29,633 nucleotides of DNA from a virus, in IMG/VR virus record IMGVR_UViG_3300021959_000266, positions 1 to 29,633 of that record. The stretch is one strand, 5' to 3'. Under the pieces are notes generated by a model, which saw nothing but the letters and a program-made list of their open reading frames with translations, was not told the origin of the DNA and did not search any database. Of this stretch, positions 3,760 to 29,379 are shown one piece after another; within the stretch, counting starts at the first letter, position 1; every line of letters starts with the position of its first letter. Both the position numbers and the translations under genes were made by a program.

Positions 3760-3788
3760 TTTAGTGAAATATACCTTCCTTAGGGGTA

Positions 3789-3796
3789 TATAAATA
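3789..3796 (+). promoter_or_regulatory. Late promoter five bases before the portal ATG
   Basis: Exact TATAAATA, then TAGTT, then ATG at 3802. With T4 late-promoter geometry the transcript would start at or next to the A of the ATG. The nearest purine-rich site (AGGGG, 3782-3786) lies upstream of the predicted start and would not be in that mRNA. Confidence 0.8.
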
Positions 3797-3801
3797 TAGT
3801 T

Positions 3802-5337
3802 ATGGAAATATTTGGGTTTGAAATAACTCGTAAAAAAGACGAGTTACGAAATATCGAGGTCACAAAAGCACCATCTTTTGTGCCACCTGTTGATGATGAT
3901 GGGACACCCGTCATTCAACAACAGCCTGGTGGTTTTGCACTAGGTGGAGCATATGGTGCTTTCGTAGACTTTGAAGGTGGTATTAAGAATGAGGTTGAAC
4001 TCATTCGTAGATATCGTGAAGCCTCCTTGGTTCCTGAAGTAGATTCAGCTATTGAGGATATTGTCAATGAGTGTATCACTTCTGATTCAGCAGACAGGAT
4101 TGTGTCACTCGATCTCAGAGATGTTAAACTCTCTGACAGTATCAAGAAAAAGATACAAGACGAGTTTGCACACATCTTATCTTTAATGAAGTTCAATCAG
4201 AACTCTCATGAAATAGTCAGAAAATGGTATATTGATGGAAGGGTTTACTTCCATAAAGTTGTTGACCCTGAAAGACCACAAGCTGGTATCGTAGATATCA
4301 GAAACATTGACCCTCTTAAAATTAAGAAGGTTAGAAATGTTGAAAAAGAAAAAGACCCTAAAACTAAGGTCGATAGAATTAAAAAGGTTGAAGAATTTTA
4401 TGTCTTCAACGACAAAGGATTTGATAAGAGTGGAACCATTGATGGGACTGCTCTTAAAATTGCACCTGAAGCAGTATCATATACAACTTCAGGTTTACTT
4501 GACTACACAAAGAATGTAGTAGTTGGGTATCTGCATAAGGCATTGAAAACTGCAAACCAGTTGTCAATGATGGAAGATGCACTTGTAATCTATAGGATTT
4601 CAAGAGCTCCTGAAAGAAGAATCTTCTACATTGATGTTGGAAACTTACCAAAAGCAAAAGCAGAACAATACCTTTCAGATGTAATGAACAAGTATAGAAA
4701 TAAACTTGTTTATAATGCACAGACAGGTGAGATCAAAGATGATCGTAAACACATGTCTATGTTAGAAGACTTCTGGCTTCCTCGTAGAGAAGGTGGAAGA
4801 GGAACGGAGATTTCAACTCTGCCAGGCGGACAAAACCTTTCAGAGATTGAAGATATCGAATACTTCAAGAAGAAGTTATATCGTGCATTAAATGTTCCTG
4901 TATCTAGAATGGAGTCCGACAATGGATTTAACATGGGTCGTGCTTCAGAGATTTCTAGAGATGAACTTAAGTTTAATAAGTTCACAAACAGACTTCAGAA
5001 GAAGTTTGCAAGAGTTTTTACAGATATGCTTAGAACTCAAGTAGTTCTAAAAAATATTGTGAGTGCAGAAGAATTTGATCATTTCAAAGACTTCTTACTT
5101 TACGATTTTGCAACCGACAACCATTTTACAGAGTTGAAGGAAAGTGAAATCATGAGAGAGAGATTTGATACTCTCTCACAAGCATCTGAGTATGCAGGTA
5201 AATACTTCTCACATGAATACATTAGGAAGTATATACTTAGACAGACAGAAGATGAAATTAAGATCATCGATCAACAGATTGCAGCTGAAAAAGATGCAGG
5301 TGAGGACGATGAAGACGAACAAGGTTTCGATTTTTAG
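3802..5337 (+). CDS. 20: Portal protein gp20
   Basis: 511 residues (T4 gp20: 524). It forms the dodecameric portal vertex that nucleates the prohead, docks the terminase and joins head to tail. Recognisable blocks are RRYREASLVPEVDSAIEDIV near residue 65, RKWYIDGRVYFHKVVDPERP near 145, SGLLDYTKNVVVGYLHKALK, ALVIYRISRAPERRIFYIDV and MLEDFWLPRREGGRGTEIST in the middle, and the acidic C-terminal tail. The start MEIFGFEITRKK resembles marine T4-like portals, which supports this ATG although it sits only five bases after a late promoter and lacks a well-placed Shine-Dalgarno. Confidence 0.97.
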   Translation: MEIFGFEITRKKDELRNIEVTKAPSFVPPVDDDGTPVIQQQPGGFALGGAYGAFVDFEGGIKNEVELIRRYREASLVPEVDSAIEDIVNECITSDSADRIVSLDLRDVKLSDSIKKKIQDEFAHILSLMKFNQNSHEIVRKWYIDGRVYFHKVVDPERPQAGIVDIRNIDPLKIKKVRNVEKEKDPKTKVDRIKKVEEFYVFNDKGFDKSGTIDGTALKIAPEAVSYTTSGLLDYTKNVVVGYLHKALKTANQLSMMEDALVIYRISRAPERRIFYIDVGNLPKAKAEQYLSDVMNKYRNKLVYNAQTGEIKDDRKHMSMLEDFWLPRREGGRGTEISTLPGGQNLSEIEDIEYFKKKLYRALNVPVSRMESDNGFNMGRASEISRDELKFNKFTNRLQKKFARVFTDMLRTQVVLKNIVSAEEFDHFKDFLLYDFATDNHFTELKESEIMRERFDTLSQASEYAGKYFSHEYIRKYILRQTEDEIKIIDQQIAAEKDAGEDDEDEQGFDF

Positions 5338-6455: not shown

Positions 6456-6463
6456 TATAAATA
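6456..6463 (+). promoter_or_regulatory. T4-type late promoter before gp22
   Basis: Exact TATAAATA just after the gp21 stop and 29 bases before the gp22 ATG, with a caggag site between. It probably gives a separate transcript for the abundant scaffold and capsid proteins. Confidence 0.85.
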
Positions 6464-13968: not shown

Positions 13969-13996
13969 AAAACCCTCTAGTCAACATGAGGGTTTT
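13969..13996. terminator. Hairpin between the membrane trio and gp55
   Basis: A 9-bp stem (AAAACCCTC / GAGGGTTTT) with a ten-base loop. Read on the + strand the T-run is only the stem end; read on the - strand the stem is followed by a fifth T. It could be a weak terminator of the membrane trio. Its loop holds the -35 candidate of the gp55 promoter. Confidence 0.5.
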
Positions 13997-14006
13997 AGTG
14001 TATAGT
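13978..14006 (+). promoter_or_regulatory. Sigma70-type promoter of gp55
   Basis: TAGTCA (13978-13983, four of six to TTGACA), a 17-base spacer and TATAGT (14001-14006). Six bases then separate the -10 box from ATG 14013, so the mRNA would be leaderless or nearly so. Confidence 0.55.
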
Positions 14007-14012
14007 ATTCAC

Positions 14013-14597
14013 ATGACTACGAAAAAACCTAATGAACACTATGTAAACAACAAAGAGTTCACTCAAGCAGTCTCCGAGTATAACCAAGCTGTTGCACTCG
14101 CAGAATCAAAGGGGGAAACCCCACCTAGGATGACTGAGTATATTGGTGAGTGTATCTATAAGATTGCAACCCGTCTTTCCACTCGTCCTAATTTTATCAA
14201 CTATACCTATAGGGACGAAATGATCTGTGATGCAATTGAGAATTGTATTCAGTATATCAATAATTTCAATGCAGAAAAATCTAATAATGCATTCGCATAT
14301 GTAACACAGATATGTTATTATGCATTTCTTAGACGAATCCAAAAAGAGAAAAAACAGGTCTACATCAAACAGAAAAGTATAGAAGCTTCTAATGTAATAA
14401 TGGATGCATACGATACACTTGATGGTAATCATGACCCTATGCTAACCAATACCAATATTGAGTGGATGCAGGAGAATATGAATCCAGTCCAATATGAACC
14501 TAGAACATCTAGAACTCCTAAAAAGAAGAACCCCTCTAAGAAGACTAACTTAGAGAACTTTGTAGAGGATGATCTAGATATTGAAATAGAAGAATAA
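14013..14597 (+). CDS. 55: Late-transcription sigma factor gp55
   Basis: 194 residues from ATG 14013 (T4 gp55: 185). It directs host RNA polymerase to TATAAATA late promoters together with the sliding clamp gp45. The start region NEHYVNNKEFTQAVSEYN matches the T4 gp55 N-terminus, and the body DEMICDAIENCIQYINNFN followed by AFAYVTQICYYAFLRRIQKEKKQ is the sigma region 2-like core. An upstream in-frame ATG at 13986 lies inside the hairpin before the promoter and would add nine unrelated residues, so I prefer 14013. The stop overlaps gp47 (TAATG). Its targets are present throughout this window. Confidence 0.93.
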   Translation: MTTKKPNEHYVNNKEFTQAVSEYNQAVALAESKGETPPRMTEYIGECIYKIATRLSTRPNFINYTYRDEMICDAIENCIQYINNFNAEKSNNAFAYVTQICYYAFLRRIQKEKKQVYIKQKSIEASNVIMDAYDTLDGNHDPMLTNTNIEWMQENMNPVQYEPRTSRTPKKKNPSKKTNLENFVEDDLDIEIEE

Positions 14598-17376: not shown

Positions 17377-17384
17377 CATAAATA
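17377..17384 (+). promoter_or_regulatory. Late promoter five bases before the 17390 ATG
   Basis: CATAAATA (seven of eight), then GTAGT, then ATG at 17390. The box starts directly after the gp46 stop. The spacing is identical to that at the portal and 28324 genes. Confidence 0.75.
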
Positions 17385-17389
17385 GTAGT

Positions 17390-18928
17390 ATGAAAAGTTT
17401 TAATCAATTCCTTAACAAAGAAGACATTAAATTAGACCTACCTACAGTTTCCGTTATTATGGAAGGGGGTATGGGCAAGGATGACCTCTTTAAAAGGAAA
17501 AACAAAACAGGGTTTATTGAGAAAGGTTCTAATGGTGAACTTTTAGACACTACTGGTAAAAAACTTTCAATCAAAGATCAAGAAGCTTGGGATGCAGCAC
17601 GTCATACATTAGAACTTGCAATATCTGATGGTGACCTAGACAAGGAGTGGGCATCTAATCTTAATAAGGCATTGGGTATTCGTGGACTTAGTAACATCGA
17701 TAAGATTGCAAACGGGTTTTCCACAGTAACAGGTAAAGACCCATCAGGTGAAGATTGGGAAGCTGGTATTGCAGTTGCATTAGACAAACTCCAAGGTAGA
17801 AACTTTATGGAAACTCCTGAATGGGAGAGATTCGGAAAGTATTGGGGTGATTGGGAAGACCAAGCAATGTTGACTGCAAAGGACTTTATCACCAAATTAA
17901 AAGTCACTACACTTTCACAAACAGGTTCAATGAAAGTAGGGGGGTTGACCCCTGAGTGGAAAGGTTCAAACACTACACCTAAAACAGACTTGATGGACAC
18001 GGGTGGTAGAAAAAGAATATCACTTAAGAAAGCAGGTGGTTCTCAGTTAATGTCAGCAGGTAAGGAAGAGTCTATCTCTACCGTAGAAGCTGCAATGAGA
18101 ATGTATTCTACAAATCCACAAGGTAAAAAGAAAATTGATTCTCTTTTAGATAGTTTAGAAAAGAAAATGATCAAACTATCTGAGAAGGGTCAAGTATCAG
18201 ATATTGAAGCACTTAGAGGTAAGGATAATCTCTCACCACAAGATCAAGCAAAACTCAATGAGTTAGACTTAGGTCAAGAGTATGCAAAAGAATTGACTTC
18301 AGAAATGGAAAATCTTTTCAACTCAGAACCCCTAATGAAGTCATACTTCTGTTGGGAAGCTGCAACGGGTCATGGTAAGTTCGGACAAGACACATGGCCA
18401 ACTGCAACTGTGATTGCAACTTTTAGAGGTAGTGGTGGAATAGAATCTATACAAGAATTAAAAAGTCCTGAGAAAGACGGTGGAGCAATTGCAAAGGGTA
18501 ATGGGTTCTATGTGTCATTTAAAAGTTCAGGAAGTTCTGCACCATACCTATCTCTTAGATCAAAGAAAGTAAAACTTAACAATTCACATAAACCATACAC
18601 ACTAGGTGAGATATTAGTAGAAGAGATTATGAAAGAAAAGTTCATGCTCACCGAAGACTTGCAAACACTTAATGAATTTCAATTAGTAGACAAAATTTTG
18701 AAAACTGCAAAGGATGTTTCTTCAAAGGTATCATCTGTTGCAAAAAGAATTTGGGCAGCTGTATTACAAAGAATTAACGAAGCATTTAACTGGATTAAAA
18801 AACAGGGTAGAAAAATTTTAGATGCTGTGTTATACTTTTTTGGATTGAAAATAAATGATGTAAAACTGAAATCAGGTGGAACCTATCCTCTGTTTTCAGG
18901 ATTAAAAACAAGTGCATTTGCAGGGTAA
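17390..18928 (+). CDS. Probable virion protein with amphipathic C-terminus
   Basis: 512 residues from ATG 17390, which starts MKSFNQFLNKEDIKLD and sits right after a late promoter. An upstream in-frame start lies in gp46. The opening resembles the MKTFxxF starts of prohead and virion proteins of marine T4-like phages. Middle segments (FLYVSF-type strands, SEPLMKSYFCWEAATGHGKF near 320, YLSLRSKKVKLNN near 400) suggest a folded domain. The last ~90 residues hold a cationic amphipathic stretch (VAKRIWAAVLQRINEAFNW, IKKQGRKILDAVLYFFG). A late promoter inside an early-type gene region suggests a structural or injected protein. No family recognised with confidence. Confidence 0.8.
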   Translation: MKSFNQFLNKEDIKLDLPTVSVIMEGGMGKDDLFKRKNKTGFIEKGSNGELLDTTGKKLSIKDQEAWDAARHTLELAISDGDLDKEWASNLNKALGIRGLSNIDKIANGFSTVTGKDPSGEDWEAGIAVALDKLQGRNFMETPEWERFGKYWGDWEDQAMLTAKDFITKLKVTTLSQTGSMKVGGLTPEWKGSNTTPKTDLMDTGGRKRISLKKAGGSQLMSAGKEESISTVEAAMRMYSTNPQGKKKIDSLLDSLEKKMIKLSEKGQVSDIEALRGKDNLSPQDQAKLNELDLGQEYAKELTSEMENLFNSEPLMKSYFCWEAATGHGKFGQDTWPTATVIATFRGSGGIESIQELKSPEKDGGAIAKGNGFYVSFKSSGSSAPYLSLRSKKVKLNNSHKPYTLGEILVEEIMKEKFMLTEDLQTLNEFQLVDKILKTAKDVSSKVSSVAKRIWAAVLQRINEAFNWIKKQGRKILDAVLYFFGLKINDVKLKSGGTYPLFSGLKTSAFAG

Positions 18929-24573: not shown

Positions 24574-24859
24574 GATGAGTGATATAAACTACAAATACAA
24601 TGAGGGAGAACTCTTAAAAGAGTTTTCCCAATATGTTGATCAGACATATGATCAACATTATTCTTTAAACAAGTTTCAAGCAACGGAGTTCATTTTAGAT
24701 AGTGGACACGGTGAAGGATTCTGTATTGGCAACATATTGAAGTATGCACAAAGATACGGTAAAAAAGATGGGTATAATCGTAAGGATTTGTTGAAGGTCT
24801 TACACTATGCTCTTATAGCTCTCTATAACCATGACCTTCAACATGAGGATAAAAAATAG
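24566..24859 (+). CDS. DUF3310-like protein
   Basis: 97 residues from ATG 24566, which overlaps the CobS stop; ATG 24575 is an alternative start. The core KFQATEFILDSGHGEGFCIGN followed by ILKYAQRYGKKDGYNRKDLLKVLHYALIAL matches the pattern of DUF3310 phage proteins, in which an acidic helix and a GNxxKYxxRYxxK stretch are conserved. Biochemical role unknown. It lies directly before the sliding clamp (gap of two bases), which hints at a role during replication. Confidence 0.75.
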   Translation: MSKMSDINYKYNEGELLKEFSQYVDQTYDQHYSLNKFQATEFILDSGHGEGFCIGNILKYAQRYGKKDGYNRKDLLKVLHYALIALYNHDLQHEDKK

Positions 24860-24861
24860 TG

Positions 24862-25530
24862 ATGAAAATATCAACTGATACGAAGACTGTTCTAAAAAAC
24901 TTCTCCACGATTAACTCAGGTATTAGAGTAAAATCAGGGAACAAGTTAGAGACAATCTCTAATATGAAAAACATACTTGCAGTGGCAACGGTCAGTGAGA
25001 CCTTTCCACAAGATTTTAGTATATACAACCTACCTGAATTCTTAGGTGCAACTTCTCTTATGGAAGACCCTGATTTTCAGTTTGGTGATAAAAGTATGAC
25101 TATTGCAGACGATAACACTACCATGGCATATTTTTATGCAAGTGATGGTTTGGTGACTGCACCCGAAAAAATGATTACTATGCCTGATGCAGAAATTGGA
25201 TTAGATATCAGTTCTCAACTACTGAGTGATCTGAATAAAGCAGCAGCTGTCTTGGGTGTAAATGATTTGGTTCTAGAGTCAGATGGAACAAAAGTCACAC
25301 TTACTGTGAAAGACAAAAAGAATGCAGCTACTAATACATTCTCAAGGACTGTAGGACAGAACACCACAGGTGTTAAGTATTCAATAAACTTTAAGATTGA
25401 GAACTTAAAGATTCTAGAAGGAAACTATGAAGTCTTAGTTTCGTCAAAAGGAATCTCACACTTTAAAAACAAAGATGTTGATTTAGAATACTTCATTGCA
25501 ATAGAACCTGATTCAAAATACAATGTCTGA
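24862..25530 (+). CDS. 45: Sliding clamp gp45
   Basis: 222 residues (T4 gp45: 228). It is a trimeric processivity clamp for DNA polymerase and the mobile enhancer of late transcription with gp55. MKISTDTKTVLKNFSTINSG closely follows the T4 start, and FSIYNLPEFLGATSLMEDPD and the final VDLEYFIAIEPDSKYNV correspond to T4 blocks. ATG 24862 is preferred to the GTG at 24859 because it gives the T4-like N-terminus. A structured intergenic element separates it from gp44. Confidence 0.95.
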   Translation: MKISTDTKTVLKNFSTINSGIRVKSGNKLETISNMKNILAVATVSETFPQDFSIYNLPEFLGATSLMEDPDFQFGDKSMTIADDNTTMAYFYASDGLVTAPEKMITMPDAEIGLDISSQLLSDLNKAAAVLGVNDLVLESDGTKVTLTVKDKKNAATNTFSRTVGQNTTGVKYSINFKIENLKILEGNYEVLVSSKGISHFKNKDVDLEYFIAIEPDSKYNV

Positions 25531-28261: not shown

Positions 28262-28289
28262 AAAGGGGTCAGCACGACCCCTTTTTTTT
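28262..28289 (+). terminator. Rho-independent terminator inside the accessory cassette
   Basis: A 9-bp stem AAAGGGGTC / GACCCCTTT (28262-28270, 28276-28284) with loop AGCAC and eight Ts (28282-28289). The stem is the same as the outer stem of the gp23 terminator. The next gene has its own late promoter 22 bases later. Confidence 0.93.
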
Positions 28290-28310: not shown

Positions 28311-28318
28311 TATAAATA
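28311..28318 (+). promoter_or_regulatory. Late promoter five bases before the 28324 ATG
   Basis: Exact TATAAATA, then GAAGT, then ATG 28324. No ribosome binding site fits between them. Same spacing as at 3789 and 17377. Confidence 0.85.
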
Positions 28319-28323
28319 GAAGT

Positions 28324-28617
28324 ATGGATATATTCTCATTTATTAAAGAAGTTGGAACTCCTATTGCTATGGCAATAGTCATGAGTTACTTCATCTTTCT
28401 AGTGTTGAAACAAATCTTACAGGGGATAGTAGATAGCATAAAAACTCTCACTATTTTTTGCGAGGGACTAGAAAATAGAGCAAGAACAATGTCCAACGAG
28501 TTGGTGAAAATAGATTTGTTAGTTTCATCAGCACTTGAATTAAAACCCGATATTGATCGAATAGCACGTGCAGAGAATTTCATAGAGGATGGAAAGCTAG
28601 ACGTTAGAAGAGATTAA
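28324..28617 (+). CDS. Small membrane protein, paralogue A
   Basis: 97 residues from ATG 28324 (an earlier in-frame codon lies inside the terminator). SFIKEVGTPIAMAIVMSYFI and a hydrophobic run to about residue 38 form one membrane span, followed by a helical, charged segment (CEGLENRARTMSNELVKIDL). Its N-terminal 35 residues parallel those of the next protein (SLIGEYGFPVVMLVGLGYFI), suggesting duplication. The opening also recalls YvrJ-like phage proteins. A leaderless late transcript is predicted. Confidence 0.75.
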   Translation: MDIFSFIKEVGTPIAMAIVMSYFIFLVLKQILQGIVDSIKTLTIFCEGLENRARTMSNELVKIDLLVSSALELKPDIDRIARAENFIEDGKLDVRRD

Positions 28618-28624
28618 GGAATAC

Positions 28625-28894
28625 ATGGACAACGATATAGCAAGTCTTATAGGAGAGTATGGTTTTCCCGTTGTCATGTTAGTAGGACTGGGGTATTTTA
28701 TCTATTTTCTGTGGAACTTCATCAACGATGAAATAGACCCACATATTGAAAAAATGCACTTCACACTAATTCGTGTTATAGATCAAGTTAGAATGTTAGA
28801 TCAAGATTTAATACGACTTCAACAAAAAGTAAACGTAGTGTTAGAGTATAAGAATAGGGATAAATTGAAGTCGGAAGGAGAAAAGAAAAAATGA
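28625..28894 (+). CDS. Small membrane protein, paralogue B
   Basis: 89 residues, starting MDNDIASLIGEYGFPVVMLV, with aagga upstream and a seven-base gap after the previous gene. One membrane span (about 13-32), then an amphipathic coiled-coil-like helix (HIEKMHFTLIRVIDQVRMLD) and a basic tail. It resembles the preceding protein in the GxP-type N-terminus and topology. Its stop overlaps the CsgF-like start (ATGA), so both are translationally coupled; a structural link to the secretion pore is possible. Confidence 0.75.
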   Translation: MDNDIASLIGEYGFPVVMLVGLGYFIYFLWNFINDEIDPHIEKMHFTLIRVIDQVRMLDQDLIRLQQKVNVVLEYKNRDKLKSEGEKKK

Positions 28895-29379
28895 AAATAA
28901 CAGTAGTGTTTTTTCTATTGATGTTTCCAATAGGAACATATGCAACCGAAATAGTTCATCAATTTAAGAATCCATCCTTTAGTGGTGTAGGAACGGGTTC
29001 TCATTATCTGACGATTGAGAATCAAGAATTCTCTCGTAAGAAACAAATTGAAGATGCACTTGAGGCAGCAAGAAAAGCTGCAGAACGAGAAGCAGAAAAT
29101 ACCACACTTGCAAAATTTATTCGAAACTTAGAAAGTAGAATATATGCACAGATGGCAAAACAATTAGTTGAATCAATGTTCCAAAATGACAATCCAGTTA
29201 GATTTGGTTCATTTGTTTTAGAAGGTTCAACAATTACATATGAAGTGATCACAAACGAAGATGGTAATGAATACATAAAAATGACAATTGTAGATTCAGA
29301 AGGTTCTACCACGGTAATAGAAATACCTGTAGGAACTGGATACTTCGGGAGTGATTATGGCACGAATCCTGACGGTTAG
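28891..29379 (+). CDS. csgF: CsgF-like curli secretion accessory protein
   Basis: 162 residues. A Sec signal peptide (MKITVVFFLLMFPIGTYA, probable cleavage after Ala18) leads into VHQFKNPSFSGVGTGSHYL, which closely matches the E. coli CsgF segment [20 protein letters not shown], the part that inserts into the CsgG pore. The Ala/Glu-rich helix at about 50-95 is a CsgF-like middle, with FIRNLESRIYAQMAKQL near its end. The C-terminal ITYEVITNEDGNEYIKMTIV and DSEGSTTVIEIPV parallel the beta end of CsgF. CsgF is exported to the periplasm and caps the outer-membrane pore. A CsgG-like gene overlaps it by 23 bases. Confidence 0.82.
   Translation: MKITVVFFLLMFPIGTYATEIVHQFKNPSFSGVGTGSHYLTIENQEFSRKKQIEDALEAARKAAEREAENTTLAKFIRNLESRIYAQMAKQLVESMFQNDNPVRFGSFVLEGSTITYEVITNEDGNEYIKMTIVDSEGSTTVIEIPVGTGYFGSDYGTNPDG

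Follow-up and report, generated by a model that had tools for sequence, protein, structure and literature searches.

T4-type late promoters set five bases before the start codon predict leaderless mRNAs for the portal and other late genes in a lineage of marine T4-like phages

Late transcription in bacteriophage T4 is a textbook system whose transcripts are taken to carry Shine-Dalgarno (SD) leaders. Its promoters consist of an 8-bp box, TATAAATA, at -13 to -6 with the first base of the box numbered -13, roughly a helical turn ahead of the start, followed by an AT-rich start region and served by gp55, gp33 and gp45 (PMC2988020). In T4, RB49 and KVP40 most late boxes stand at least 13 bases upstream of the gene, often with an SD in between. 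Leaderless phage mRNAs, which begin at the AUG and have no SD, are known from lambda cI transcribed from pRM and from the late transcripts of Thermus phages. A further precedent concerns RNA structure: at T4 gene e and I-TevI, a hairpin present in read-through RNA controls the mRNA (PMC3014915). For cyanomyophages and pelagimyophages, the same phage group as the one considered here, the consulted portions of three reports annotate late promoters with a TATAAAT-type motif (PMC3037559, PMC7029224, PMC9004378), and late promoter prediction in pelagimyophages is said, in the consulted part of one of them, to have failed (PMC7029224).

The DNA analysed here (29,633 nucleotides, hereafter the window) encodes at 3802-5337 (+) a T4-type portal protein (gp20; phrog_213, E 4.9e-205), and positions 3781-3804 (+) read TAGGGGTA-TATAAATA-TAGTT-ATG. 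As in T4, the 8-bp box is followed directly by AT-rich DNA (TAGTTATGGAAATATTTG), and homologues of the late sigma factor gp55 (13986-14597, +; phrog_234, E 4.3e-60) and of the sliding clamp gp45, the activator of T4 late transcription (24859-25530, +; phrog_223, E 1.2e-68), are encoded in the window together with a clamp loader. The original prediction placed a late box exactly five bases before the portal ATG and its transcription start on the A of that codon, and both agree with the sequence: the box occupies 3789-3796 (+) and the ATG begins at 3802, and since the first base of the box is -13 in T4 numbering, the predicted +1 falls at 3802, with the last T of the TAGTT spacer (3797-3801, +) at -1. 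There is no ATG, GTG or TTG alternative between the in-frame stop TAG at 3781 and 3802. TATAAATA occurs eight times in the window, always on the + strand, versus 2.1 expected copies, and none of 100 shuffles reaches eight; the copy at 465 falls within the terminase gene and so was not taken as a promoter. No conserved -35 element accompanies the portal promoter, where only hairpin pairing is kept upstream of the box.

Among the 80 relatives' loci that were retrieved, 16 contigs with portals 78-96% identical to that of the window form one group. The box TATAAATA is kept in all 16, and its distance from the ATG is exactly five in 15 of them and in the window, and six in L015. The nearest relative (L003, 96% identical) is an independent contig; L005 lies outside the portal-upstream alignment but is identical to L004 over the stretch. 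The sequence 5' of the box has diverged and is poorly conserved across this clade, so that the distance from box to ATG is what is held, and the start codon itself is anchored by an FGFEI N-terminus conserved in the relatives. Remoter portals (53-57% identity) stand mostly behind a longer leader, in many cases one that carries an SD, although L040 and L044 also show the five-base gap. The comparative sequences thus indicate that the box-to-ATG spacing at the portal is not due to chance, and they make a leaderless portal message, as proposed earlier, the best explanation, with selection acting on the exact spacing.

The arrangement of box, five bases and ATG (N5) is not specific to the portal but characterizes a lineage-wide class of genes, which the original prediction had missed. 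About 2.8 Mb of T4-like phage DNA contains 88 genes in 38 families with NATAAATA-N5-ATG, versus 49 genes for the other 14 spacings below 15 together (about 3.5 per spacing), and the histogram of NATAAATA-to-ORF-start distances in the relatives' loci has one sharp peak, a single base wide, at 5. Within the first 80 loci, N5 holds 31 TATAAATA boxes and 17 other NATAAATA boxes, versus 0-3 and 0-6 per short spacing elsewhere; counted by family, the marine set has 34 at N5 versus 0-5 at each of the remaining spacings between 0 and 14. No N5 peak of similar size appears in the marine set with rearranged AT-rich control motifs, and a control pattern shifted by one base peaks at N4, which is read as largely the same sites.

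Whole genomes were compared for four clade contigs, one further contig, Mosig, HTVC008M, Melnitz and six reference phages. N5 genes of at least 40 aa number 10 in G001 (a 140-kb contig), 5, 5 and 3 in G002-G004, and 3 in the window; among isolates from heterotrophs, the Pelagibacter phages HTVC008M and Mosig have 9 and 7, respectively, and the OM43 phage Melnitz has 3. The whole genomes of T4, RB49, KVP40 and the Synechococcus phage Syn9 have none, the Synechococcus phage S-PM2 has one and P-SSM4 two. Matches to the whole-genome pattern versus its reversed control were 11/0 in G001, 8/0 in Mosig and 9/1 in HTVC008M. Isolated ATAAATA-N5-ATG matches, one or two per genome, occur in T4-group phages, namely at 113272-113286 (+) and 131165-131179 (-) in T4 (NC_000866) and singly in RB49, RB69 and IME13; none of those of T4 and RB49 opens an ORF of at least 40 aa. 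The N5 families include portal, tail-tube-like protein, gp25-like wedge, tube cap and tape measure, as well as DNA end protector, small terminase, peptide deformylase, NifU-like and HNH proteins. In Mosig, HTVC008M, Melnitz, G002 and G003 alike, the end protector gene is N5, with protein identities as low as 27%.

Two further cases are found in the window. A late-type box CATAAATA at 17377-17384 (+) lies five bases before the ATG of a gene with no PHROG (17390-18928, +), whose start is predicted to be leaderless and whose homologue in G004 is also N5. The product begins MKSFNQFL, and several other N5 genes likewise start with MKSF or MKTF, which may echo the sequence that targets internal head proteins of T4 to the capsid. 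The third abutting box, TATAAATA at 28311-28318 (+), precedes the ATG at 28324 of a small membrane-protein-like gene (28324-28617, +; phrog_18771, unknown function) with a predicted leaderless start, and just 5' of this promoter lies an intrinsic terminator of nine pairs followed by a T-run (28262-28284, +). This gene and the next (28625-28894) are a tandem pair, both phrog_18771, of which the first is preceded by a terminator and an abutting late promoter of its own. The product of 28891-29379 resembles HTVC008M CsgF (EIVHQFKNPSFSG versus EIVHEFKNPAFSG), so that curli export genes like those of pelagimyophages are probably present in the window.

Several features of the N5 genes bear on how their messages begin. 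Their start codons are 84 ATG, 1 GTG and 2 TTG, and an SD within 16 nt is found in 2 of 45 N5 genes versus 61 of 95 leadered genes of the same phages; nearly uniform ATG starts lacking an SD support leaderless late mRNA. In 84% of leadered promoters a purine occupies the sixth position after the box, a start-site signature, and the same position holds the A of the N5 ATG. T is found at -1 in 80% of N5 genes versus 43% of leadered promoters. Intrinsic terminators lie directly upstream of 12 of 88 N5 boxes versus 15 of 393 leadered boxes, and genes placed behind a terminator, such as that at 28324, are unlikely to rely on read-through. The portal gene itself has an AUG start and no functional SD. 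From these sequence features we infer, with good support, that N5 genes are transcribed into leaderless late mRNAs.

Two other readings of the motif can be weighed against the same data. If transcription began one to three bases off the A, it would leave either a near-zero leader or an incomplete AUG with the real start codon downstream, as the N6 spacing of L015 and a few genes at N6-N8 might suggest. However, N5 exceeds N6-N8 about 20-fold in sites (84 versus 4 each), the conserved FGFEI N-terminus fixes the portal start, and the N5 ATGs are the depositors' annotated starts in 19 of 19 cases in Mosig, HTVC008M and Melnitz, which makes such a shift very unlikely. Start sites at T4 late promoters may nonetheless wander by a base or two, giving a leader of 1-2 nt. 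It is just as improbable that TATAAATA-N5-ATG serves in translation, as an AU-rich enhancer held at a fixed mRNA distance, and not as a promoter: the box is indeed AU-rich and close to the AUG of genes that lack an SD, but the motif is the gp55 consensus and also stands far upstream of SD-leadered genes, no N5 peak is seen with other AT-rich 8-mers, and those several N5 genes that stand behind an intrinsic terminator must have a promoter of their own.

Upstream of the portal box, an inverted repeat of nine pairs with a 5-nt loop (3769-3791, +) runs with its 3' arm into the first three box bases and would be present only in read-through RNA. In 16 of 16 portals (the window and 15 relatives) the first box bases are where such a repeat, of 5-11 pairs, comes to its end, with 128 pairs in total through the box versus 71 +/- 5 in shuffles (maximum 90), and a mean of 8.0 pairs at portal boxes versus 3.6 at other late boxes of the same contigs. 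The position adjoining the box is paired in 16 of 16 by five different pair types; pairing is thus conserved where sequence is not, which suggests that the hairpin acts as structure. Consensus folding of a MAFFT alignment gave no pairs, since loops differ in length and the arms fall out of register in the alignment; stems were therefore counted in box-fixed register. The repeat has no T-run and no terminator call, and was rejected as an intrinsic terminator; nor is it a general late-promoter feature, being specific to the portal site among the clade late boxes (L003-L018 and the window). A different placement is common in remoter marine phages, where the late box of the portal is often found in a hairpin loop, for example ACCCgactaaatagaaGGGT in L024.

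The 3' arm of the window's portal hairpin contains the GGGG of the SD-like AGGGG (3782-3786, +) that the original prediction had located 5' of the predicted start, where it is indeed present, 15 bases from the ATG. The accompanying proposal that read-through transcripts would still use this AGGGG is not supported: the spacing is too far off at 15 nt, the motif is common only to the window and the 96%-identical L003, and its GGGG is paired in the hairpin 3' arm, so that we judge it a non-working SD. This bears on the possibility that the portal is made mainly from gp18-gp19 read-through mRNA, with the AGGGG or the AU-rich stretch guiding the ribosome and the box a genuine promoter that owes its position at the ATG to genome compactness. 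No terminator separates gp19 from the portal gene, and a leadered late promoter lies upstream at 1187, from which read-through RNA may include the portal gene, with a start that is AU-rich and has no SD. As the main route, however, this is improbable, since compaction would not favour N5 alone, whereas N4 and N6-N14 are almost empty versus 34 families at N5, the AGGGG is distant, not conserved and part of a hairpin, and a terminator precedes the abutting promoter at 28311 and those of several relatives, where read-through should be scarce.

The region 3789-3804 is therefore highly likely, on the sequence comparisons above, to be a T4-type late promoter fused to the start codon, giving a leaderless portal mRNA in an arrangement shared across the lineage. 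In the mechanism we propose, gp55-RNA polymerase would start on the A of the portal ATG, and the resulting mRNA would have the AUG as its 5' end and bind ribosomes without an SD; a subset of late genes would be expressed in this way across T4-like phages of marine heterotrophic bacteria. Read-through RNA from the gp18-gp19 operon would carry the hairpin and the leaderless transcript would not, so that the read-through form probably serves the portal less well as a message, or else has a protected gp19 3' end. The role of the hairpin may accordingly be to silence read-through portal synthesis, or to serve as a 3' stabiliser for gp19.

Within the operon the portal stands alone in having an abutting box and no SD, in the window as in four clade contigs. 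In the same five contigs, gp18, gp19 and gp23 have AGGA/AGGAG-type SDs, as does gp22 in four of five (in G001 the local match falls short of the gp22 start); gp21 overlaps the upstream ORF in the window. The contrast is clear at the leadered late promoters of gp18 (tail sheath; 1187-1194, +) and gp22 (scaffold; 6456-6463, +), which are followed by AGGAG before the ATGs at 1236 and 6493, respectively. The portal is needed at 12 copies per head, and many other N5 genes encode low-copy virion parts. It had been suggested that a low-copy structural protein could be made from a leaderless message at reduced efficiency; that high-copy neighbours keep AGGAG-type SDs while the portal has none fits this idea, but the support is circumstantial and not proof. 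The high-copy gp18, gp19 and gp23 would thus use AGGAG-type sites instead of leaderless starts, and the operon would offer a natural contrast between a leaderless portal and AGGAG-led sheath, tube and capsid genes.

A host explanation would be that SAR11 genes are themselves often leaderless. Over 400 kb of a SAR11 genome, TATAAT-to-ATG distances show a small rise at -14 to -11, but other AT-rich permutations rise almost as much. An alphaproteobacterial host as sole cause was rejected, as Sinorhizobium and Agrobacterium phages of the T4 superfamily lack ATAAATA-N5-ATG, although their late motif may differ. G001, G003, Mosig, HTVC008M and Melnitz, all rich in N5, each have a gene for ribosomal protein S21 (bS21, PF01165), whereas none of 17 T4-like phage records with few or no N5 sites does; G002, G004, G007 and the window are partial and so uninformative on S21. 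This co-occurrence is confounded by shared ancestry. That T4-like phages of streamlined marine heterotrophs devote a late translation programme to leaderless messages, with bS21 possibly tuning late ribosomes to favour AUG-headed phage mRNAs, is a tentative and rather unlikely extension.

If the leaderless reading is true, an abundant ocean phage lineage would provide many natural examples of virion genes expressed without a leader in bacteria. The N5 arrangement may also explain why late promoters were missed in pelagimyophages, and the rule of box, five bases and ATG would offer a means of revising the promoters and start codons assigned in many metagenomic contigs. Fixed N5 abutment and leaderless late genes are unreported in the consulted portions of the three annotation studies (PMC3037559, PMC7029224, PMC9004378), and a literature search of partial coverage found no leaderless T4-type late genes. 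The lambda cI and Thermus phage cases differ from the present one in involving other promoters and other phages, as opposed to a T4-type sigma factor, virion genes and at least 30 families in one lineage. By analogy, T4 gene e is the nearest precedent for the portal hairpin: at gene e/I-TevI, as predicted for the portal, the hairpin is found only in read-through RNA because the late promoter starts inside or after it, but there the SD or AUG is hidden within it, and the late mRNA still has a leader with an SD (PMC3014915). The portal hairpin, in contrast, does not include the portal AUG but ends 10 nt before it, and the late transcript is predicted to have no leader. T4 late promoters and leaderless mRNA are each known, and it is their lineage-wide combination that appears to be new.
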